Source: Acidobacteriota bacterium
GTDB taxonomy: Bacteria; Acidobacteriota; Thermoanaerobaculia; Gp7-AA8; JAHWKK01
DNA length: 64,000 bases
Assembly (NCBI GenBank): GCA_019347945.1
Contig: JAHWKK010000004.1
Span: forward strand, 1 to 64,000
Direction: 5' to 3'
In this document: piece after piece, positions 2,136 to 63,653 of the stretch
How positions within the stretch are numbered: position 1 is the first letter of the stretch
Layout of the letters: each line of letters starts with the position of its first letter
Program-made: the position numbers and the translations under genes
The notes under the pieces: generated by a model
Seen by the model: only the letters and a program-made list of their open reading frames with translations
Told to the model about the DNA's origin: nothing
Databases searched by the model: none

Positions 2136-3161
2136 CTAAGGCCGGTCCTCACGTTGCGTGGAGGGGTCGGTCGATTTGTACAGGCGATCGACCGACGCTC
2201 TGCGGGGACCCAGCTTCTTCTTTTCTTCCGCGGAACGGGGCTCTTCGTCCCATCCCATCTTTCCGACTACCAGCTTCGGTACGTTGATGAAGATCCAGTC
2301 CTCGGTCCGCCGTACGATCGCATCGATCGGAATGTAGAGGTCTCGATCGCGAATGATGCCTCGCGGCACGACGATGTGATCGGCGAGCTCACCTTGCCCG
2401 CGCACGACCTTACCGACCTTGCCGATCTCCCCATGATCCGATCCGTAGACGGTGTCGCCCTCAGCGATGGCCCGCTCCCGATTCTGCCCATTGATGGCGG
2501 CCAGAATCTCGTCCACTTTCATTACCGCATTCGAGATCAGCGGGTAATTGATGCGGACCGAAGCCTCGTACGCCGGCATGTTCTCCGCGCCGATCGCATC
2601 GGTGACGAACGTGACGTCGTAGCCGTGCTCGACCGAATGACGTCCGGTGGATTCGCAGCAGAGATTCGCCGTCATCCCGGCGATGATCAGGTGCTCGATT
2701 CCGAGGCGGTCGAGATGTTGTGGCAGGTCGGTCTCGAAGACGTCGCTTCCCTTGTGGGGTTGCAGAATGACGTCGTCGTTCTGCGGCCGCAGCTCCGGAT
2801 GGAAGTCGGCTCCCCATGACCCGGCGAGAAACATCTTCCGCTCGAACATGATGCGGTTGATGCCACTGCGGCGCTGCCACTTCGAGTCGAGGTAGTCCTC
2901 CTCAGTGTAGGCCATCGGGCCGAACAGGACGGGAATCCCTCGCTCCCTGGCCCCTGCGATCAGTCGCTTCAGATTCGGGACCACTTCATTCATCTCTACC
3001 GTTCCCTTCGTCAGCTCCCAGGCGGCTCCCCCGGGTGAAAGAAAGTCATTGACCGGGTCGATGACGAGCAGTGCGGTCATGCCGGAACGTTCCGGTAAGT
3101 CTCGTGCCTCGGTCGCGAAGATGGCACTCGTAGCGGCGTCGTTTCTGTCTGCTTGATTCAT
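2136..3161 (-). CDS. Isochorismatase-family cysteine hydrolase with C-terminal PRC/DUF2171-like domain
   Basis: Residues about 28-220 are an isochorismatase-like fold with the family triad: Asp35 (LLVIDPVNDF), Lys137 (QPHKGSD) and Cys168 (TANLCCEST). This superfamily hydrolyses amide, carbamate or vinyl-ether bonds (nicotinamidase, N-carbamoylsarcosine amidase, ureidoacrylate amidase and others). Residues about 237-300 match the beta-rich PRC-barrel/DUF2171 pattern (VYGSDHGEIGKVGKVV), an uncommon addition. ATG at 3161 follows a good GGGAGG six bases upstream. The substrate cannot be read from the sequence; it is 2.7 kb from the pyrimidine operon but separated by mobile DNA and another gene, so a link is only speculative. 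Confidence 0.85.
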   Translation of the reverse strand: MNQADRNDAATSAIFATEARDLPERSGMTALLVIDPVNDFLSPGGAAWELTKGTVEMNEVVPNLKRLIAGARERGIPVLFGPMAYTEEDYLDSKWQRRSGINRIMFERKMFLAGSWGADFHPELRPQNDDVILQPHKGSDVFETDLPQHLDRLGIEHLIIAGMTANLCCESTGRHSVEHGYDVTFVTDAIGAENMPAYEASVRINYPLISNAVMKVDEILAAINGQNRERAIAEGDTVYGSDHGEIGKVGKVVRGQGELADHIVVPRGIIRDRDLYIPIDAIVRRTEDWIFINVPKLVVGKMGWDEEPRSAEEKKKLGPRRASVDRLYKSTDPSTQREDRP

Positions 3162-3338
3162 CGTGTCCTCCCATGTGGAGGACGTGCATCACCGATGCCG
3201 TTGAGCTCGTGTGTTGCGGGTGCGACAGCGGACCCCCGCCTGAAGACGGAGGCTACAGATCCTCCGACCGCTTCGCGGGCGGACCGCGCTGGGACTGCTT
3301 CTCTGTGCGCAGCTGTGCCGACTGGGAGGGTGGGGGAA

Positions 3339-3597
3339 GTTGGGGTCACAGCCAGAAACGCAACTTAACGAGTGGCGAGTGGCAGTCCGCCGGGTAAGAT
3401 GATCTCCGGTTTCCACCGCCTGGGTCCCGCAGACAGAAGGTTCTTCGGCCGGCCGTTCGCGTGTCCCCTTCGGGATCCCGCCGCCCTCACCCCTCATGGC
3501 CGGCAGACAACTCCGCATCGATCCCTGGTGGGATCCACGTCACCCCATGGGCGATTTCCGACGTGCCGTGGCGGCGAGGTGTGACCCCAACTTTATT
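3339..3597. mobile_element. Deleted, non-autonomous copy of the REP-transposase element (MITE-like)
   Basis: The stretch begins AGTTGGGGTCACAGCC and ends TGTGACCCCAACT, so its ends are inverted. Bases about 3339-3520 match, with few changes, the right end and transposase start of the 25.46-26.55 kb element, including the remnant of its first codons (RQLRID), then the homology is lost. It is therefore an internally deleted derivative about 260 bp long. The gap 3162-3338 upstream contains no gene I can support. Confidence 0.7.
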
Positions 3598-3659
3598 TTA
3601 TCTTCACTCCAGCGCTGTATACTCCGCTGCTCTTTCGGTCTGACCGGGTCAGGATTCTG

Positions 3660-5192
3660 ATGCTCAAACGCCGTTTGCTGCTCATCGCTTTCGCTCTGGT
3701 CGCGCTCCTGGGATCGGTGGTCGTGCTCTTTTTCGTGGGAGTTGTCTGGCCGCTCCGGACTCTGGAGCCGATCCGCACGAGCACCCCGCTGGCGATTGTC
3801 GATGTCACGGTGATCGATGTCCCGTCCGGCACGACCAGGCCTTCGCAGACCGTTGTGATCGACCGCGGCCGCATCGTCGAGACGGGCGGCCGCGATGACG
3901 TCGTTGTTCCTTCTGATGTAACGGTCATCGACGGAGCCGGCCTCTATCTCCTGCCCGCGCTATGGGACATGCATACCCACGTCTATGCGGTGAGCCCGAT
4001 GCTTGACCTTCCACTGTACATCGCCTACGGCGTGACCAGCGTGCGCGACATGCAAGGGTGTCCCCAGCCGGATGATCCGTTCATAGCCTGCGCCTCCGAC
4101 AAGCGCCGCTGGAGCAGTGAAGCGATTGCCGGTGAGCGCGTCGGGCCTCGCATCGTCTCCACGGCCAGCTGGATGGCCAATGGCCCCGGAATGGTCGACC
4201 GGCTCGGAGATGTCCCGCTGTACTTCGATACCGCGACCCCGAAGCAGGCGCGGCAATTCGTTCGCCACCATGCGGGGAGCGTCGACGCCATCAAGGTCTA
4301 CGACCGGCTCCCACGCGACGCCTACCTCGCTCTGGTCGCCGAGGCGAAGAAGCTCGATCTCGAAGTGGTCGGGCATCGGCCGCACGCGGTCAGCGCGGTT
4401 GAGGCCGCGGCGCATCAGAAGAGCCTCGAGCACGCGCGTTTTCTCCTGCACGAGTCCTTTCCCGGAAGCGAAGAGCTCCGCTCCCGCGCCGGAACCTCCG
4501 GGTGGCGCGAGGATCGCCGCCGAATGCTCGACGAGCACGACCCCGTGATGGCGGCAGCGATATTCGAGGCGATGCGCGAGCATGGAACCTGGTATGTCCC
4601 GACTCATCTGACGCGATGGTCGGACGCCTGGGCCGATCATCCTTCCGTCCGTCGGGACCCGCTCCTCCGTTATCTCCATCCCCTGATGAAGCGTCAATGG
4701 CTGGAGGACGTCGACGAAGTTCTGGCCCGGGATCCGTCACCCGAGGCGAGAGAAACGTACCGTGAATTTCACCGAAAGGGGCTCGAGCTGACCGGCGCGG
4801 CTCACCGCGCGGGGGTCCGCATTCTGGCAGGGACCGACTACATCGTTGCCGGCGCGGATCTTCATCGCGAGCTCGAGCAGCTCGTCGCCGCCGGGCTCAC
4901 TCCGCGGGACGCACTCTACGCGGCCACCGTTGCCCCGGCCGAATACTTCGGTGCCGAAATGAACTACGGGGCGGTCGCCCCGGGAAAGGTGGCCGATCTC
5001 CTCCTGCTGGACGCCAACCCGCTCGAGGACATCCGCAATACCCAACGCATTGCGGCGGTGGTGTTCCAGGGCAACCTGTACGATCGCGAAGCGCTGCAGA
5101 CGATCTCGGATCACGTCGAGCGCCAGGCGCAGAGCTGGACGGTCGGATGCAAGATGATCTGGCGGTTCGTCCGCAATCCCGGTGGATATTGA
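3660..5192 (+). CDS. Membrane-anchored amidohydrolase (metal-dependent, amidohydrolase family 1)
   Basis: 510 residues: an N-terminal signal anchor (about 5-30), then an amidohydrolase TIM barrel with the full metal set: His105 and His107 (MHTH), Lys212 (AIKVYD) as bridging residue, His239 (VVGHRPH), His258 (SLEHARF) and Asp393 (AGTDY). Relatives include imidazolonepropionase-like hydrolases, prolidases acting on Xaa-Pro bonds, and exported cyclic-amide hydrolases; the substrate is not evident. The anchor suggests work on the periplasmic side. ATG follows CAGGA at six bases. It is flanked on both sides by decayed transposase elements and stands alone, so it may have arrived with them. Confidence 0.85.
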   Translation: MLKRRLLLIAFALVALLGSVVVLFFVGVVWPLRTLEPIRTSTPLAIVDVTVIDVPSGTTRPSQTVVIDRGRIVETGGRDDVVVPSDVTVIDGAGLYLLPALWDMHTHVYAVSPMLDLPLYIAYGVTSVRDMQGCPQPDDPFIACASDKRRWSSEAIAGERVGPRIVSTASWMANGPGMVDRLGDVPLYFDTATPKQARQFVRHHAGSVDAIKVYDRLPRDAYLALVAEAKKLDLEVVGHRPHAVSAVEAAAHQKSLEHARFLLHESFPGSEELRSRAGTSGWREDRRRMLDEHDPVMAAAIFEAMREHGTWYVPTHLTRWSDAWADHPSVRRDPLLRYLHPLMKRQWLEDVDEVLARDPSPEARETYREFHRKGLELTGAAHRAGVRILAGTDYIVAGADLHRELEQLVAAGLTPRDALYAATVAPAEYFGAEMNYGAVAPGKVADLLLLDANPLEDIRNTQRIAAVVFQGNLYDREALQTISDHVERQAQSWTVGCKMIWRFVRNPGGY

Positions 5193-5278: not shown

Positions 5279-5790
5279 AAGTTGGGGTCACAGCCAGAAA
5301 CGCAACTCGACGAACTGGTTCGCGCACCATCGTTCTGAATCCGGTTCGGTGTGGTGCGGTGACCTACGCCGGAGACTGGAAATGAGCATATACCGCGCAG
5401 CCTCGTCCTCGCGGAGTCAAGAAGCTCGAGGGAAGGCCGGTGCGGTGGAGGCTACGGACCGGCGACTTCCGGAGGCCCTCTTCACCTGCTGAAGCGGCTT
5501 CCTTCAAAGCGAAGATCTGAACGCGGCAGGCTTCTCGATGAAGAACTTCATGCGCATCTGCAGAGTCTCTCCGAATCCGACCGCTGCCTCGACCTCTTTC
5601 GGAGGGCTTCGAACCAAGAGCCATCGGACGGGACGGAAGGTCTTCGCAATGCTCGCCTATCGGGAGTGCGGCTTGACGATGCAGATGATCGCCGAGTATC
5701 TGGACGTCTCGGGTCAGGGAGTCTCTGAAATGATCCGCGCCGCAGAAGAGCTGGAACGCGGCAACGGCATGTGGAAGTCATGGTTTTACC
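5279..5790 (+). pseudogene. Decayed REP-associated Y1 transposase element
   Basis: Starts with the element terminus (AGTTGGGGTCACAGCC, 5281 onward), then jumps directly to an internal stretch of the transposase (LNPVRCGAVTYAGDW near 5333-5380, interrupted by a stop at TGA) and, after about 200 bases of unrelated sequence, to the C-terminal helix-turn-helix (GRKVFAMLAYRECGLTMQM, about 5630-5690, ending MIRAAEE). The HTH is nearly identical to that of the 25.5-kb copy. The catalytic His and Tyr parts are missing, so it cannot be active. Its right end is lost where it meets the pyrimidine operon. Confidence 0.75.
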
Positions 5791-9742: not shown

Positions 9743-11077
9743 TCACACCAACGACGAGAATGCGCCATCCAGCGCGTCGACGAGCTCATCGATGTCAGCC
9801 CGCGTCGCAATCAACGGCGGTCCGAGCCGGATGACGTTTCCGTAGAGCCCGCCTTTTCCGATCAGCACACCGCCCCGCCGCGTCTCTTCGAATACCTTCA
9901 GCACCGCTTCCGGAGCGGGCTCCTTCGTCGTTCGATCCTTCACACATTCGATCGCCTGCATCAATCCCATCCCGCGGACGTCACCGATCACGGGGTACTT
10001 CTCCTTCAATTCCTCGAGTCGCTGGCGGAGGTACCCACCGACGACCGCGGCGTTTCGCGGAAGCTCGTTCTCCTCAATGACACGGATCGTCGCCAGGGCC
10101 GCCGCCGAGCTCACCGGATTTCCGCCGAAAGTCGAGAACGTCAGCGACGGGTAGGCGTCGGCAATCTCCCCGGTTGCCACCGTCAGCCCGATGGGTGCTC
10201 CGTTCGCCATCCCCTTCGCGGAGGTGATCACGTCGGGCTCGACGTCCCAGTGCTCGATGCCGAACCACTTGTCACCCGTGCGCCCCCATCCGGTCTGGAC
10301 CTCGTCGGCGATGAAGATGCCGCCGTATCGTCTGATGATCGAGGTGACCTCGGAAAAGTACTCCTTCGGCGGGGTGATGAAGCCGCCGACACCGAGAATC
10401 GGCTCGGCAATGAAGGCGGCGATCTGGCCGTCGGTCGTGGTCTGGATCAGCTCTTCCGCGTCTTTGGCACAGCGGATGTCGCATGAGGGGTAGCTCAGGC
10501 CAAACGGGCAACGGTAGCAGTACGGCGCCGCGAGATGCTTGATTCCCGCCACGTGCGTGCCGCCGTGCCGCCAGCTCGCATGACCCGCCGCGCTCATCGC
10601 GAGCATCGATCGGCCGCTGTAGGAGTGGCGGAGTGCGATGATCTCCTGGCGGCCGGTGTAGAGCCGGGCGAGCACGATCGCGGTCTCGTCCGCCTCGGTT
10701 CCGCTGTTGGTGAAGAAGCTCTTTTCGAGGCGGCCCGGCGTAATCTCCGCGATCTTCTCTGCGAGATCCGCCTGCGGCCGGTTCACGTAGAGGGTGGAGG
10801 TGTGTGCGATCTTCCGGGCCTGATCGATGATCGCTTCGGTCACGACGGGATTCGCGTGTCCCACCGAGACCGTCAGCACGCCCCCGAAACAATCGAGATA
10901 ACGATTGCCGTCCTCGTCCCAGACGTGCATTCCCTCGCCTCGATCGAGAACGAGCGGCTCTTCGTAATAGGTCGTCGCACAGCGCCAGATATGCTCCCGA
11001 TGCTTGCGAAGCGTCTCTGACGAGCGTGACGGCGAGGCCGTCTCGCGTCCAGCCGCGGCGGTTCCCGGCTCAGCCAT
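9743..11077 (-). CDS. Class III PLP aminotransferase (AGXT2-like; beta-alanine/beta-aminoisobutyrate:pyruvate)
   Basis: Fourth step: moves the amino group of beta-alanine or beta-aminoisobutyrate to pyruvate or glyoxylate, giving malonate or methylmalonate semialdehyde. 444 residues; PLP lysine Lys288 (SAKGMANG), phosphate/pyridine contacts around IADEVQTGWGRTG (Asp258) and the GTEAD turn at 126-130. Four cysteines (Cys187, 190, 199, 203 in YCYRCPFGLSYPSCDIRC) match the conserved insert of AGXT2-type enzymes. Only three bases separate it from the preA stop, so the two are coupled. Other omega-amino acids may also serve. Confidence 0.88.
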   Translation of the reverse strand: MAEPGTAAAGRETASPSRSSETLRKHREHIWRCATTYYEEPLVLDRGEGMHVWDEDGNRYLDCFGGVLTVSVGHANPVVTEAIIDQARKIAHTSTLYVNRPQADLAEKIAEITPGRLEKSFFTNSGTEADETAIVLARLYTGRQEIIALRHSYSGRSMLAMSAAGHASWRHGGTHVAGIKHLAAPYCYRCPFGLSYPSCDIRCAKDAEELIQTTTDGQIAAFIAEPILGVGGFITPPKEYFSEVTSIIRRYGGIFIADEVQTGWGRTGDKWFGIEHWDVEPDVITSAKGMANGAPIGLTVATGEIADAYPSLTFSTFGGNPVSSAAALATIRVIEENELPRNAAVVGGYLRQRLEELKEKYPVIGDVRGMGLMQAIECVKDRTTKEPAPEAVLKVFEETRRGGVLIGKGGLYGNVIRLGPPLIATRADIDELVDALDGAFSSLV

Positions 11078-25463: not shown

Positions 25464-26552
25464 AGTTGGGGTCACGGCTATAAAATCAACTTAACGTCCG
25501 ATCGAATACCCCTCAGAGATTCCCGCCATGTGCGGTCGTCTTCTGCGGCGCGGATCATTTTGAGACTCCCTGACCCGAGACTCCGAGATACTCCGCGATC
25601 ATCTGCATCGTCAAGCCGCACTCCCGATAGCCGAGCATTGCGAAGGCCTTACGTCCCGGCCGATGGCTCTTGGTTCGAAGTGTCTCCGGCGTCTCATTGA
25701 ATTCACTGAGAACCAGCTCGATGACGTGGTCCAGCGTCGGTCGCACGATCTCGAGCTGGGCGCGCGGGTGCGCACGGCTTCGCGGCTGCGACGAGATCAT
25801 CGGCTGAATCATGTCGCAGAACGCCTCCCCGCCGAGGTAGATCTGACCGATCAGCGATTCCAACGGGTTGTACGAAGCTCCGCGGGCATCCGCAACGAAC
25901 CCACGATAGCTTCCCGTGCCCGTCCCTTGTCCCGCAGATCGAACTTCGCCAGAGTCCACTCCGTCTCGAGCCAGTTCGGCGCGGGTGCCAGACCGGCGGT
26001 CGCGCGGTAGTTGCTCCATTTCCAGTCTCCGGCGTAGGTAACCGCACCACAATGAACCGGATTCAGAACGATGGTGCGCGTGAGCTCGAGCAGGTGCGAC
26101 ACGCGTTCGACCAGGATGTTCTTGAACCGGCCCTGGACAGGTGTCCCACCCTCCGGTGGCGTTCATTGAACCAGCGCGCGTAGGACTCGTTCAACTTCTT
26201 CATTCCGCGAGACAGCCCCACCTCCGGGGTCTCGATCAGCAGGTGGTAGTGATTCGACATCAGAACCCACGCGTGCAGGATCCAGCGGCGGAGAATCACC
26301 ACCTCCTCGAGGATCTCGAGAAACCTCAACCGATCGCGATCATCGCGATAGATGATCCGCCTTTCGTTGCCGCGGGAGGTGATGTGATGGATCGCATCAG
26401 GGAAATCGATGCGGAGTTGTCTGGACACGCGAACGCCGGCCGAAGAACCTTCTGTCTGCGGGACCCAGGCGGTGGAAACCGGAGGTCATTCTACCTCGGC
26501 GGACTGGCACTCGCCACTCGTTAAGTTGCGTTTCTGGCTGTGACCCCAACTT
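25464..26552. mobile_element. 1.09-kb REP-associated transposase element with inverted ends
   Basis: Left end AGTTGGGGTCACGGC ... CAACTTAACG; right end, inverted, AGTTGGGGTCACAGCC ... CAACTTAACG. The interior is filled by one degenerate Y1-type transposase gene on the minus strand. Internally deleted relatives are at 3339-3597 and 5279-5790. The element abuts the truncated LRR gene at 26553, so it, or the deletion that accompanied it, cut that gene. Confidence 0.75.
25478..26428 (-). pseudogene. REP-associated tyrosine (Y1/HUH) transposase, frameshifted
   Basis: The N-terminal 100 residues are a clear Y1 transposase: IDFPDAIHHITSRGNERR (HUH-region), WVLMSNHYHLLIETP and GLSRGMKKLNESYARWFN. 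A frameshift near 26120 moves to the frame RFKNILVERVSHLLELTRTI and LNPVHCGAVTYAGDW, a second near 25890 moves to ARGASYNPLESLIGQIYLGG, and a one-base deletion at about 25558 breaks the C-terminal HTH (GLTMQMIAEYLGVSGQGVS) compared with the 5.7-kb copy. Reading through, the gene would end at TAG 25478. At least three frameshifts make it inactive. GTG start near 26428. Confidence 0.85.
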
Positions 26553-59295: not shown

Positions 59296-59640
59296 TCAGG
59301 AAAGGTCGAGCACCAGCCGCAGACCAGCGTCGAGTCGCGCAAGCGAAGCACCTTCGAGTCGCCCCATCCGCTCGGTCAGCAATGATTTAGTCAAGGTCAG
59401 GATCTGAGAGACGTTGACGACCGACTTCTTCGGCAATCCCGTCCCGCGCCGTGACACGACGAAGTTCCCAGGCGCTTCGCCGAGAGCGAGATTCGACGTG
59501 AGCGTCGCTATGATTACGGTCTGAATGCGACTCTCGTTGAAGTCGTTGGCTTGGATCACGACCACCGGTCGCCGGTAACCGGGAGACGAGCCATGGGGAT
59601 CCGGCAGAGAAGCCCACCAGATCTCCCCGCGCCTCACCAC
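59296..59640 (-). CDS. mazF: MazF/PemK-family mRNA interferase toxin
   Basis: 114 residues: RRGEIWWASLPDPHGSSPGY, RRPVVVIQAND, TVIIATLTSNLALGEAPGNF and KSVVNVSQILTLTKSLL are the MazF motifs; the conserved Arg/Thr pair is present. GTG start. Overlaps the 3' end of its antitoxin gene by seven bases. Confidence 0.92.
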   Translation of the reverse strand: MVRRGEIWWASLPDPHGSSPGYRRPVVVIQANDFNESRIQTVIIATLTSNLALGEAPGNFVVSRRGTGLPKKSVVNVSQILTLTKSLLTERMGRLEGASLARLDAGLRLVLDLS

Positions 59641-59870
59641 TCCTCCCGCGGAATCGAGAGTCCCTGCATGATCGACAGCGCCTCATCCACCTCGGCGGAT
59701 TGCTCGCTATAAATATCATCGAGCTTTTCTCTCACTGCCTTCGAGCGATGCCTGACCGTATAGTCGGCCACGGCTAGCGCATAAAGGCGGCTGCGCGTTA
59801 TCTGGAGTCTCTCCGCAAGCTCCTCGGCCTGCTCGAACAGTTCGTCTGGTATCGAGATCGCTGTTTTCAT
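59634..59870 (-). CDS. Ribbon-helix-helix-type antitoxin paired with MazF
   Basis: 78 residues from ATG 59870: AISIPDELFEQAEELAERLQITRSRLYALAVADY is a ribbon-helix-helix, followed by an acidic helix (DDIYSEQSAEVDEALS) that should bind the toxin. Not the AbrB-like MazE of E. coli but the MazE6/PemI-like type. TATACT upstream on the minus strand is a likely -10; the mRNA leader would be short. Confidence 0.85.
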   Translation of the reverse strand: MKTAISIPDELFEQAEELAERLQITRSRLYALAVADYTVRHRSKAVREKLDDIYSEQSAEVDEALSIMQGLSIPREEW

Positions 59871-60013
59871 ACCACAGTATAACTCAAGTGGCTGGTCGCT
59901 ATTCCTGCGACGTACCGCTGTAAGACCTTCTCCCGCGGTCGATCGAGGTGTGATGCCGACTCCCCCAACCTCCAACCTCCAACTGTGATGCTGGTACCAT
60001 TCGGCGCCGCTGA

Positions 60014-61081
60014 ATGGACCCGCTCGCTCACACGCTCACAGGGGCGAATCTCGCCGCCACCCGGCTCGGTGGCAAGTCCCGTCTCGCCGCCGCCGCGCTC
60101 GTGATCGGGGCCAACGCGCCGGACATCGACGCGATCCTCTACTTCACCGGCCACCGCGATCTCGCGCTCGGCTTCCGGCGCGGCTGGACCCACGGCGTGC
60201 TGGCGCTGGTCGTTCTCCCCTTGATCCTGACCGGGCTCCTCCTTCTGTACGACCGGCTCCGGCCCGATCCGGAGCGGCGCGCCGATCCGAAATGGCTCCT
60301 TCTTCTCTCCGCGATCGCGACGCTCACGCATCCGACGCTCGACTGGCTCAACACCTACGGGATGCGCTGGTTGATGCCGTTCCGGCCGACGTGGTTTTAC
60401 GGCGACTCGGTGAACATCATGGATCCGTGGATCTGGCTGATCCTCGGAATCGGCTGGCTCGTCGGACGGCGGCCGACGATCGCGATGGTCGCTCTCTGGG
60501 CAATCTTCACGTTCCTGATCCTCCGAATCGTCGGCGGGCGCGCGCCGGAGTACCTCGTTCTCGTCGCAATGATCGCCGTGATTCTTCTGCTGGCGCTGCT
60601 GTGGCGCGGTCCCGCGCGCAATGCGCGGCTGGGCGCGCGCTTCGCAACGACGGCGCTCATCGTCACGACGCTCTACATTTGCTCGCGGCTGCTGATCAAC
60701 GCCGCGGCGGGCGCGGAGGTAGAGCGTCAGCTCGAAGCGCGCGGCATCGTTCCCGTACGCGTGCTGATGCTCTCCCCTCATCCGATCGATCCTCGGGCGT
60801 GGTCGTTCGTCGCGCGCAACGACGACCTCTACCGCGTCGGGACGATCGAGTGGCCGGGAGGGGAGGTCGAGCTCTCCGAAGAAACGCTTCCGGTCGCGAA
60901 GGAGAGCCCGGAATGGAGAGCGGCGCGGCGCGATCCCTCGATCCGCGGCTTCATGACGTGGGTGCGTTTCCCCTCGTACGTGATCGAGAGAACCGGTGGT
61001 GAGACGCGAGTCCTGATCTACGACGCCAGGCGAGCGACCGGCAGCTGGCCCTCACCAAGGATCGTGACGCTGAAACCGTGA
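60014..61081 (+). CDS. YdjM/DUF457 membrane-bound metal-dependent hydrolase family protein
   Basis: 355 residues: N-terminal DPLAHTLTGANLAA, GANAPDIDAILYF, GWTHGVLALV and LTHPTLDWLNTYG with the His/Asp residues of the family, about six transmembrane helices, then a soluble C-terminal domain (about 240-355). Proteins of this family are phospholipase/PAP2-like membrane hydrolases in name; actual substrates are unproven. Ends just before the 50-bp repeat at 61087. Confidence 0.85.
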   Translation: MDPLAHTLTGANLAATRLGGKSRLAAAALVIGANAPDIDAILYFTGHRDLALGFRRGWTHGVLALVVLPLILTGLLLLYDRLRPDPERRADPKWLLLLSAIATLTHPTLDWLNTYGMRWLMPFRPTWFYGDSVNIMDPWIWLILGIGWLVGRRPTIAMVALWAIFTFLILRIVGGRAPEYLVLVAMIAVILLLALLWRGPARNARLGARFATTALIVTTLYICSRLLINAAAGAEVERQLEARGIVPVRVLMLSPHPIDPRAWSFVARNDDLYRVGTIEWPGGEVELSEETLPVAKESPEWRAARRDPSIRGFMTWVRFPSYVIERTGGETRVLIYDARRATGSWPSPRIVTLKP

Positions 61082-61086
61082 CACTG

Positions 61087-61136
61087 GGCTTTTCCGCGGG
61101 TATCGGAGTTAAGTTCCGGGTTCGGACCCGACCCCG
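61087..61136. repeat. 50-bp repeat, copy 1, upstream of the antiporter
   Basis: GGCTTTTCCGCGGGTATCGG through GTTAAGTTCC and TTCGGACCCGACCCCG. Direct copy, three or four changes, at 62681-62731. The stop of the upstream gene is five bases away; the antiporter start is 15 bases downstream. Confidence 0.8.
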
Positions 61137-61151
61137 CATATATTGAGCTCG

Positions 61152-62666
61152 ATGCCAGAGATCCTGCTCGAGAAAGCTGTTCCGATCGAGATGCTTCTCG
61201 TCGCCGTCGGCATTCTGCTCGTCGTCAGCATCCTCGCGAGCAAGGCTTCGGGGCGGCTCGGTGTCCCGGCACTGGTGCTCTTTCTGACGATCGGAATGCT
61301 GGCCGGTTCGGAGGGAATCGGCGGGATCTACTTCGACGACGCCGAGACGGCGCAGTGGATCGGAGTCGTCGCGCTCGCTTTCATTCTCTTTGCGGGAGGT
61401 CTGGAAACGAACTGGGACTTCGTCCGTCCGAGCATCCGGGGCGCGCTGTCGCTCTCGACGCTCGGAGTGCTTCTGACTTCCGCATCCGTCGCGCTGGCCG
61501 TTTTCTATTTTCTGGGGCTCCCACTCCCTCAGGCTTTTCTTCTGGGAGCGATCGTTTCGTCGACGGACGCGGCGGCGGTTTTTTCGGTATTGCGCTCGAA
61601 AGGCGTGGATCTGAACGAACAGCTCGCCGCGACACTCGAACTGGAGTCGGGAAGCAACGATCCGATGGCTATCTTTCTCACCACGGCGTCGATCCAGTTT
61701 CTGCTGCAGCCGTCCACGACCGTCGGCACGCTCGCTCTGGACTTCGTTCTGCAGATGAGTCTCGGTGCTCTCTTCGGCTACCTGATGGGGGTCGTGGCGA
61801 CCCTGATCGTGAATCATCTCCATCTCGAGTACGGTGGCCTTTACCCCGTTCTGACGATCGCGGTCGTCATGCTCACGTATGGAGGGGCGGCTGCGCTCGG
61901 CGGAAACGGATTTCTGGCGGTCTACATCGCAGGGATCGTCATGGCCAATCGAAATTTCGTTCACAGGCGCCGGCTGACAGCATTTCACGACGGCCTCGCC
62001 TGGCTGATGCAGATCGCCATGTTCCTCGTGCTCGGGCTTCTCGTGTTCCCGTCGCAGCTCATCGAGGTGGCGTGGGTCGGCATCGCCGTGGCCCTCGTGC
62101 TGATCTTCATCGCGCGCCCGGTCGCCGTGTTCGTGTCTCTCGCTTTCACTTCGCTCGGTTTACGGGAGAAGACACTGATCTCCTGGGTCGGGCTTCGTGG
62201 GGCCGTGCCGATCATTCTCGCAACGTTCCCTCTGCTCGCGGGAGCGCCGGGAGCGGCGCTCATTTTCAATGTCGTCTTCTTCATCGTCCTGACGTCGGTC
62301 ATTCTGCAGGGAACGACGATTCCTCTGGTGGCGCGCTGGCTGAGGGTCGACGTAGCGACCGTTCCGGATCTCCCGCCAGGCGAGCCGGCCTTTTCATCGC
62401 GGAAGGAAAGCGCGCTTCTCACCATCGAAGTCGCCGAGGGCTCGCAGGCCGCCGACAAAAAGATCGTTCAGCTTCCGCAATGGCCGCGCGAAGCGCTGAT
62501 CCTCGTCGTCTATCGCGATGACGAGTTCTTTCTCCCGGTGGGCGGGACCGAGCTGAAGCCGGGCGATCGGCTGATCGTCCTCACGAGCAAGAAGGTCGCT
62601 GACCGGGTTCGCGCAATTGGAGCAGCACCTCCCCGGGACGGGGTCGGGTCTGAACTTGGAACTTAA
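61152..62666 (+). CDS. Cation/H+ antiporter (CPA1/NhaP2-CvrA type) with TrkA-C domain
   Basis: 504 residues. About 12 transmembrane helices with the CPA1 patterns LELESGSNDPMAIFLT (essential Asp) and WVGLRGAVPIILA, then a cytoplasmic TrkA-C domain (LLTIEVAEGSQAADKKIVQL; GDRLIVLTSKK). Probably exchanges K+ or Na+ for H+. The last 12 residues (RDGVGSELGT) and the stop codon are encoded by one arm of the palindromic repeat. ATG 61152 or TTG 61143; no strong ribosome site because the repeat lies directly upstream. Confidence 0.9.
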   Translation: MPEILLEKAVPIEMLLVAVGILLVVSILASKASGRLGVPALVLFLTIGMLAGSEGIGGIYFDDAETAQWIGVVALAFILFAGGLETNWDFVRPSIRGALSLSTLGVLLTSASVALAVFYFLGLPLPQAFLLGAIVSSTDAAAVFSVLRSKGVDLNEQLAATLELESGSNDPMAIFLTTASIQFLLQPSTTVGTLALDFVLQMSLGALFGYLMGVVATLIVNHLHLEYGGLYPVLTIAVVMLTYGGAAALGGNGFLAVYIAGIVMANRNFVHRRRLTAFHDGLAWLMQIAMFLVLGLLVFPSQLIEVAWVGIAVALVLIFIARPVAVFVSLAFTSLGLREKTLISWVGLRGAVPIILATFPLLAGAPGAALIFNVVFFIVLTSVILQGTTIPLVARWLRVDVATVPDLPPGEPAFSSRKESALLTIEVAEGSQAADKKIVQLPQWPREALILVVYRDDEFFLPVGGTELKPGDRLIVLTSKKVADRVRAIGAAPPRDGVGSELGT

Positions 62667-62733
62667 CTCCGAAATCATCAGGCCTTTTCCGCTGGTATCG
62701 GTGTTAAGTTCCAAGTTCGGACCCGACCCCGTC
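62637..62733. repeat. Palindromic repeat copy 2 (inverted pair) between antiporter and SGNH hydrolase
   Basis: Left arm GACGGGGTCGGGTC to GGAACTTAAC (62637-62667) and right arm (62703-62733) are inverted over 31 bases with one mismatch, spacer 35 bp. The right half (62681-62731) is a direct copy of the repeat at 61087-61136. The left arm holds the antiporter stop, and the right arm abuts the ATG of the next gene. Confidence 0.85.
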
Positions 62734-62735
62734 TA

Positions 62736-63653
62736 ATGCTCTTTCACATTCACAGCGGCGACATCTTTTTCAGCGCGGCGGGCATTCTGACGCTGGCGGT
62801 GATTGCCGGATTCCTCCTTCCGGAGGGGAAGTACGACCTGGCGCGGCGCGTGATCCGGACGTTCTTTCTCCTCTCGGTTCCGCTCGGCGCACTCGGCACG
62901 GTGCCGGTTCCTCCGGGGCTCGCGTTTGCGCTCGTCGGAGTGTGGGTCGTTCACGCCGCGCTCGGATTCGGGCGTCGCTCGAGGCGCGGCGCGGTGCTCA
63001 GCGGTTCGGTCCTGCTGCTTCTGGTCGTCGCGTCGGCCGCTCCGGAGATTGCATGGAGGCTTCGCCAGCCGCCTGAGCTCGCTCCGCCTCCGACAGTTTT
63101 CGTCTTCGGCGATTCCCTCAGTTCGGGAGGCTTCGGCGAGAGCCGAACCTGGGTCGACCATCTCGATGGCAGCGGAGGGACGAAGTTCATCAATCTCTCG
63201 ATGCCGTCCGACACGACCGGTTTCGTGCTTCGGTCGCGAATCGGCGAGCTCGAGGACGGCTGCCGGGCATGCGGAGTGGTGATCGAGCTCGGTGGAAACG
63301 AAATGGTCGGAAACGGATCGGCGCGCGAGTACGAGCACAACCTCCGAAAACTGATTGCCCAATCTCGCGAGCATGGTGCGGAAAGAGTCTGGCTCGTCGA
63401 GCTGCCGCCGCTTCCCGGCCGATGGTCGTGGCCAGCCGCACAGCGTCGCGTCGCCCGCGACACAGGATGTATTGCGGTTCCCCGTCGCGTCCTCGCCTCG
63501 GTTCTCGTCGATGAAGCGAATACCTTCGACGGGCTTCATCTCACCGATCGGGGACATCAAAGGCTCGCCGGGCTGATGCACGTCTGGCTCGGGCTCGCGG
63601 CGTCGGAGGCGACACCGGTACATCGTGAGGGCCCGGTACGCCGAAATCATTAA
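62736..63653 (+). CDS. SGNH/GDSL hydrolase with N-terminal membrane segment
   Basis: 305 residues. Three hydrophobic helices (about 10-105), then an SGNH domain with Block I VFGDSLSSGG, Block III GGNEMVGN and Block V FDGLHLTDRG carrying Asp and His. Typically an esterase or O-acetylhydrolase for cell-wall or surface glycans. ATG 62736 follows the palindromic repeat with no room for a ribosome site; if the repeat is a newcomer the original start may have lain elsewhere. Its stop (TAA 63651-63653) is within TTAAGTTGACCCGACC, a partial match to the same repeat. Confidence 0.85.
   Translation: MLFHIHSGDIFFSAAGILTLAVIAGFLLPEGKYDLARRVIRTFFLLSVPLGALGTVPVPPGLAFALVGVWVVHAALGFGRRSRRGAVLSGSVLLLLVVASAAPEIAWRLRQPPELAPPPTVFVFGDSLSSGGFGESRTWVDHLDGSGGTKFINLSMPSDTTGFVLRSRIGELEDGCRACGVVIELGGNEMVGNGSAREYEHNLRKLIAQSREHGAERVWLVELPPLPGRWSWPAAQRRVARDTGCIAVPRRVLASVLVDEANTFDGLHLTDRGHQRLAGLMHVWLGLAASEATPVHREGPVRRNH

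Follow-up and report, generated by a model that had tools for sequence, protein, structure and literature searches.

The window considered here, the whole 64,000-nt stretch of DNA at the start of contig JAHWKK010000004.1 of an Acidobacteriota genome (3.72 Mb in 49 contigs), carries near its end a potassium/proton antiporter gene (nt 61152–62666, + strand), which lies between a YdjM-family membrane protein gene (nt 60014–61081, + strand) and an SGNH/GDSL hydrolase gene (nt 62736–63653, + strand). Family search and reading of the frame place the antiporter in the CPA1 family as an NhaP2/CvrA-like protein (Na_H_Exchanger, PF00999, and TrkA_C domains; NF003716). Further upstream, in the region nt 59296–59975, are a PemK/MazF-like toxin gene on the - strand (nt 59296–59637) and, upstream of it, a small gene of antitoxin size (nt 59634–59870).

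The initial annotation described the antiporter gene as looking like a cassette bracketed by a palindromic repeat, which supplies its last codons and stop, and noted that the antiporter and SGNH genes both start close to a repeat with no ribosome site. The repeats themselves were readily recovered. A repeat search of the window gave a direct repeat in the same orientation (nt 61086–61136 and 62681–62731, 51 nt, 90% match) and an inverted repeat (nt 62637–62677 and 62693–62733, 41 nt, 90% complementary, 15 nt apart), and the window contains the 27-nt repeat core three times, compared with no occurrence in 100 shuffles. Taken together with a genome-wide alignment, the downstream repeat is a complete miniature element, palindromic and so given no strand (nt 62637–62733, the family member proper being nt 62639–62731), with a left arm (nt 62639–62667), a variable loop (about nt 62668–62702) and a right arm (nt 62703–62731); it is predicted to fold into a hairpin of -70.4 kcal/mol. 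The upstream repeat (nt 61086–61136, + strand, in the orientation of the copy at nt 62681) holds just the right half of a loop and the right arm, and the YdjM-family gene ends 4 nt ahead of it. The loop halves of these two copies match at 19 of 22 positions in the same orientation, with no other copy close to them; the upstream piece and the downstream element are sister copies, the former truncated. The close contacts also proved correct: the antiporter ATG (nt 61152) follows the half copy by 15 nt, and the SGNH ATG (nt 62736) follows the full copy by 4 nt. Neither gene is preceded by a Shine-Dalgarno-like motif, as had been observed, but this is ordinary, since only 27 of the 63 ATG genes examined in this genome have one.

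The left arm encodes the last nine residues of the antiporter, DGVGSELGT, followed by its TAA stop codon (nt 62664–62666, + strand), and the same kind of donation was found in four other genes. All five are unrelated, and they fall into two sets according to the frame in which the arm is entered: the antiporter, a small membrane protein (contig C15) and an MFS-like transporter (C20) all end in DGVGSELGT and take a TAA, while a metallo-beta-lactamase-fold protein (C6b) and a LipB/Nudix-like protein (C14) both end in RGRV and take a TGA, the products of these last four being named from sequence and not by family search. The LipB (lipoyl transferase)-like protein (locus L078, nt 4102–5172 on C14 of the host genome) appears to be fused to the Nudix-like domain, both domains having been assigned in the same manner. 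Repeated stop donation is explained by the reading frames of the arm: of the three in which it can be entered, two run into a stop inside about 30 nt, either a TGA after 15 nt or a TAA after about 28 nt. That the DGVGSELGT tail is kept on three unrelated proteins for some common function, the element being a protein-tagging insertion, is very unlikely.

Across the host genome the palindrome gave 52 BLAST matches and 40 exact arms, compared with none for a reversed control pattern. Alignment resolved these into 18 complete elements lying clear of contig edges, several others truncated where a contig ends, and a small number of single arms, so that at least 17 complete members lie elsewhere than nt 62639–62731; contigs C19, C26, C31 and C49 break in or beside an element. 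In each complete element a 29-nt arm, CGGGGTCGGGTCTGAACTTGGAACTTAAC, is separated from its inverted counterpart by a loop of about 35 nt, and predicted folding energies range from -48 to -78 kcal/mol across the family. The arms are near-invariant and the loops diverse, the exceptions being related pairs: the C3 and C6b copies, the C14 and C40 copies (which also have an arm variant in common), and the two copies at the antiporter locus. The sharing of a loop by such pairs indicates that the whole unit moves or is copied. Direct target-site duplications of 2–12 nt were found at 0 of 18 complete copies, which fits Y1 but not DDE transposases, and a miniature derivative (MITE) of a DDE-transposase insertion sequence was rejected on this ground. 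The outer flanks of complete copies favour GAGA, outside CGGGGTC.

All copies examined are intergenic, and most are separated from a gene end by just a few bases. By gene calls from a simple codon-usage caller, 9 of the 18 complete copies occupy convergent gaps, compared with 17 of 139 gaps overall (Fisher p = 4e-4), and 0 of 18 lie in divergent gaps. This distribution, the strength of the hairpins that occupy gene 3' ends and convergent gaps, and arms that stay identical though the loops diverge would all suit selected host regulatory elements, such as bidirectional terminators or stabilisers of mRNA 3' ends, for which mobility was secondary. Such a role is improbable as the primary explanation, as the elements are absent from all related genomes searched, they lack the T-run that would flank an intrinsic terminator, and a terminator scan made no call on the element, so that the intrinsic terminator was rejected as a candidate. 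The same positions would be expected if insertions are simply tolerated at the ends of genes. Pairing within the loops is only modestly above that of shuffled sequences (46 of 2000 shuffles reach the observed value), and loop covariation was dropped as a claim for that reason.

The dispersed family bears directly on the proposed gene cassette. The same element is present in complete form at 18 sites where there is no antiporter and, as a rule, no gene enclosed by copies; no integron integrase was found above cut-off, and the composition of the antiporter gene is ordinary for the genome, all of which speaks against the gene being a cassette. One point in favour of that claim survives, namely that the two locus copies have a loop in common (19/22) that is unlike the loop of any other copy. 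In its integron form, in which the palindrome would be the attC site closing off the gene at its 3' end, the idea has next to no credibility. The attC core boxes have the consensus RYYYAAC/GTTRRRY, and the inner arms, ACTTAAC...GTTAAGT, happen to fit these degenerate boxes. However, TIGR02249 (IntI) has no match over cut-off in the genome, its below-cut-off signal being seen also in 14 of 14 control genomes; the copies occur singly on many contigs, have unrelated genes as neighbours in convergent and tandem gaps alike, and form no array; and the long arms are near-identical outside the core boxes, unlike those of attC sites.

Because of the loop common to both locus copies, a second form of capture is kept as a minor rival, in which the antiporter came as a segment by homologous recombination between element copies, for example as a circle of antiporter plus element that entered a resident element. 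Such an event would leave copies in the same orientation on both sides, and the gene itself is patchy, being present in 4 of 61 genomes (its own included) without conserved neighbours. Local transposition explains the shared loop equally well, however, and the loop-sharing pairs C3/C6b and C14/C40 have their members on different contigs and bracket nothing. With a left copy that is only a half, a gene of ordinary composition, and best antiporter matches that lie within the same order (those named being an Acidobacteria MAG and a Thermoanaerobaculia MAG), capture by recombination appears a poor prospect. The antiporters of two relatives (G016 and G017) are 61–63% identical and occupy other neighbourhoods, with no such repeats nearby; their sequences stop at the corresponding residue and lack the nine-residue tail. 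Relatives of the YdjM-family and SGNH genes are found at unlinked places. The locus is not common to any relative compared, the host genome being the sole member of its family in the set.

Several Y1 transposases are encoded in the genome. The one on C31 (nt 393–1439; PF01797) has its catalytic HUH and tyrosine residues intact, and its NHYHLL and RYIVLNP motifs are conserved with relatives. Against the REP_Tyr_transpos model (NF047646, cut-off 80) it scores 72.3 bits, just under the cut-off, and a transposase on C7 scores 82.9, above it; the transposases also match the solved E. coli TnpA-REP (4ER8) weakly. A decayed RAYT-like Y1 transposase element with a broken frame lies within the window (nt 25464–26551, - strand). 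Pieces of it are about 69–82% identical to the intact copy on C31, and it has kept both terminal inverted repeats (nt 25464–25496 and 26519–26551). The architecture GGGGTC-N14-AACTTAA is common to the palindrome arms and to the ends of both of these transposase copies. A search for it covered 120 relatives and 297 phylum genomes (about 380 genomes). Within this set it was multi-copy only in the present genome and in others of its order, with 90 arms in one (G002, from a different family) and 8 in another (G006). Two arms were found in G016 and one elsewhere in the phylum, and controls were near zero. The G002 orthologue of the transposase is 55% identical to that of C31 and is flanked by arms of that genome's own 90-arm family, with a complete match; this family likewise consists of inverted doublets with variable spacers. 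An arm in the host genome (C3, nt 10689–10715) is identical over 27 nt to the G002 family.

These observations, namely the family, its positions, the donated stops, the arm architecture as at transposase ends, and the linkage of transposase and repeat in G002, form the basis for reading the repeats as non-autonomous, REPIN-like dimers of terminal inverted repeats, of the TIRYT or 'TIRtron' kind, moved by an HUH-Y1 transposase and landing at gene ends, for which we estimate a probability of about 87%. The whole unit, two 29-nt inverted arms and a fast-changing 35-nt loop, would move as one, most likely as a single-stranded hairpin that is cut and joined by a RAYT-like HUH-Y1 transposase encoded elsewhere in the genome. 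Copies would be retained at the least damaging sites, close up to the 3' ends of genes and above all between convergent genes, and a copy that lands in the last codons of a gene would swap the native stop for its own with little change to the protein, the antiporter being a probable case. Insertion and mobilisation of the family are suggested by its distribution and architecture, and the hairpins may also affect transcript ends.

The arms have the same spacing as the transposase ends, but in the 14 nt between the two conserved blocks they match none of the ends found in this genome. Some other details count against the TIRYT reading. No transposase with the exact arm (CGGGGTCGGGTCTGAACTTGG) was found in the assembly. 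For this reason we can only infer the mover, for which the intact C31 copy is, from its sequence, the best candidate. The arms of the palindrome family read GGGGTCGG, one position off the published GGGGWSAS, and they are missing the AAGTT..AACTT foot stem of the transposase ends. Ends of the GGGGWSAS type are present on the decayed copy in the window (GGGGTCAC) and on the G002 element (GGGGTCAC/GGGGTCGC), and those of C31 (GGGGTCAA/GGGGTCGC) are themselves one position off.

TIRtrons, or TIRYTs, were described in 2013 as Y1 transposase genes with terminal inverted repeats carrying GGGGWSAS; in some genomes there are dispersed families of TIR dimers, and a distinct acidobacterial group includes Koribacter versatilis (PMC3733652). 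The present system is similar in its Y1/HUH genes flanked by GGGG-led inverted repeats, in its dispersed dimers and in its acidobacterial host. It differs in having an arm that is specific to this genome, with GGGGTCGG in place of GGGGTCAS, as well as in the lack of an exact-arm transposase in the assembly, and, unlike the Koribacter group, its host belongs to another acidobacterial lineage, the Thermoanaerobaculia. Most TIRYTs fall in subclass 2.1 of TnpA-Y1, which has a C-terminal HTH-like domain (PMC6006769), and this subclass probably contains the closest kin of the present family; in the transposase here, HTH matches stayed below threshold (residues 295–331).

The palindrome family also has traits of REPINs, being an extragenic, multi-copy inverted doublet with conserved arms and a variable spacer, and it resembles both these and the dimers of GTAG REPs associated with RAYTs (PMC3116915, PMC3733652) in forming hairpins and in lying near 3' ends and between convergent genes. 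Published repeats of this kind are found mainly between convergent and unidirectional ORFs, near their 3' ends, and the termini of GTAG REPs often give stop codons to flanking ORFs (PMC3733652). Unlike REPINs, the present elements have no GTAG/GTGG foot, exist in tens of copies only, and have single arms that form no hairpin alone (none was visible on inspection of the sequence). The family therefore belongs to a kind of element already described, and repeat-donated stop codons have also been published. What had seemed a gene cassette gives way to a palindrome family linked to a transposase, in an acidobacterial lineage that has received little study. The family puts numbers on how mobile repeats come to lie at the 3' ends of genes, provide their stops and leave unrelated proteins with one short tail in common. 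It is also a warning that tight contacts between repeats and genes need not signal a functional unit.

Other sequences of transposases and their ends occur in the window and elsewhere in the genome. A single arm of the same architecture, GGGGTCACAGCCAGAAACGCAACTTAA (nt 3342–3368, + strand), matches one end of the decayed transposase element (nt 26521–26547) at all 27 nt, and arm-like sequences within nt 5284–5756 match the same end. Short remnants of the C-terminal half of a transposase are found at nt 5320–5382 and 5604–5756, and together these sequences are probably an older, broken transposase copy. An IS200-like transposase on C5 (nt 112637) was considered as the mover, as it lies beside a single arm (nt 113282), but it sits within a different repeat family (GCCCGCTTCAGCGGGC / CCCCCGGCTTCAGCCGGGGG) and was rejected; the closeness of the two is probably accidental. 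This second repeat system, in which short IS200-like transposases lie within palindrome arrays of GCCCGCTTCAGCGGGC and CCCCCGGCTTCAGCCGGGGG, is seen in L071 (C5, nt 2700–3700) and L089 (C8, nt 60–1250) of the host genome. Other Y1 transposases, on C1, C7 and C38, adjoin tandem repeats of the CGAAGGTGTGACCCTCATT type (L091, nt 829–1112; L092, nt 3865–3952; L093, nt 226–984), and these repeats may possibly represent a further family derived from transposase ends.
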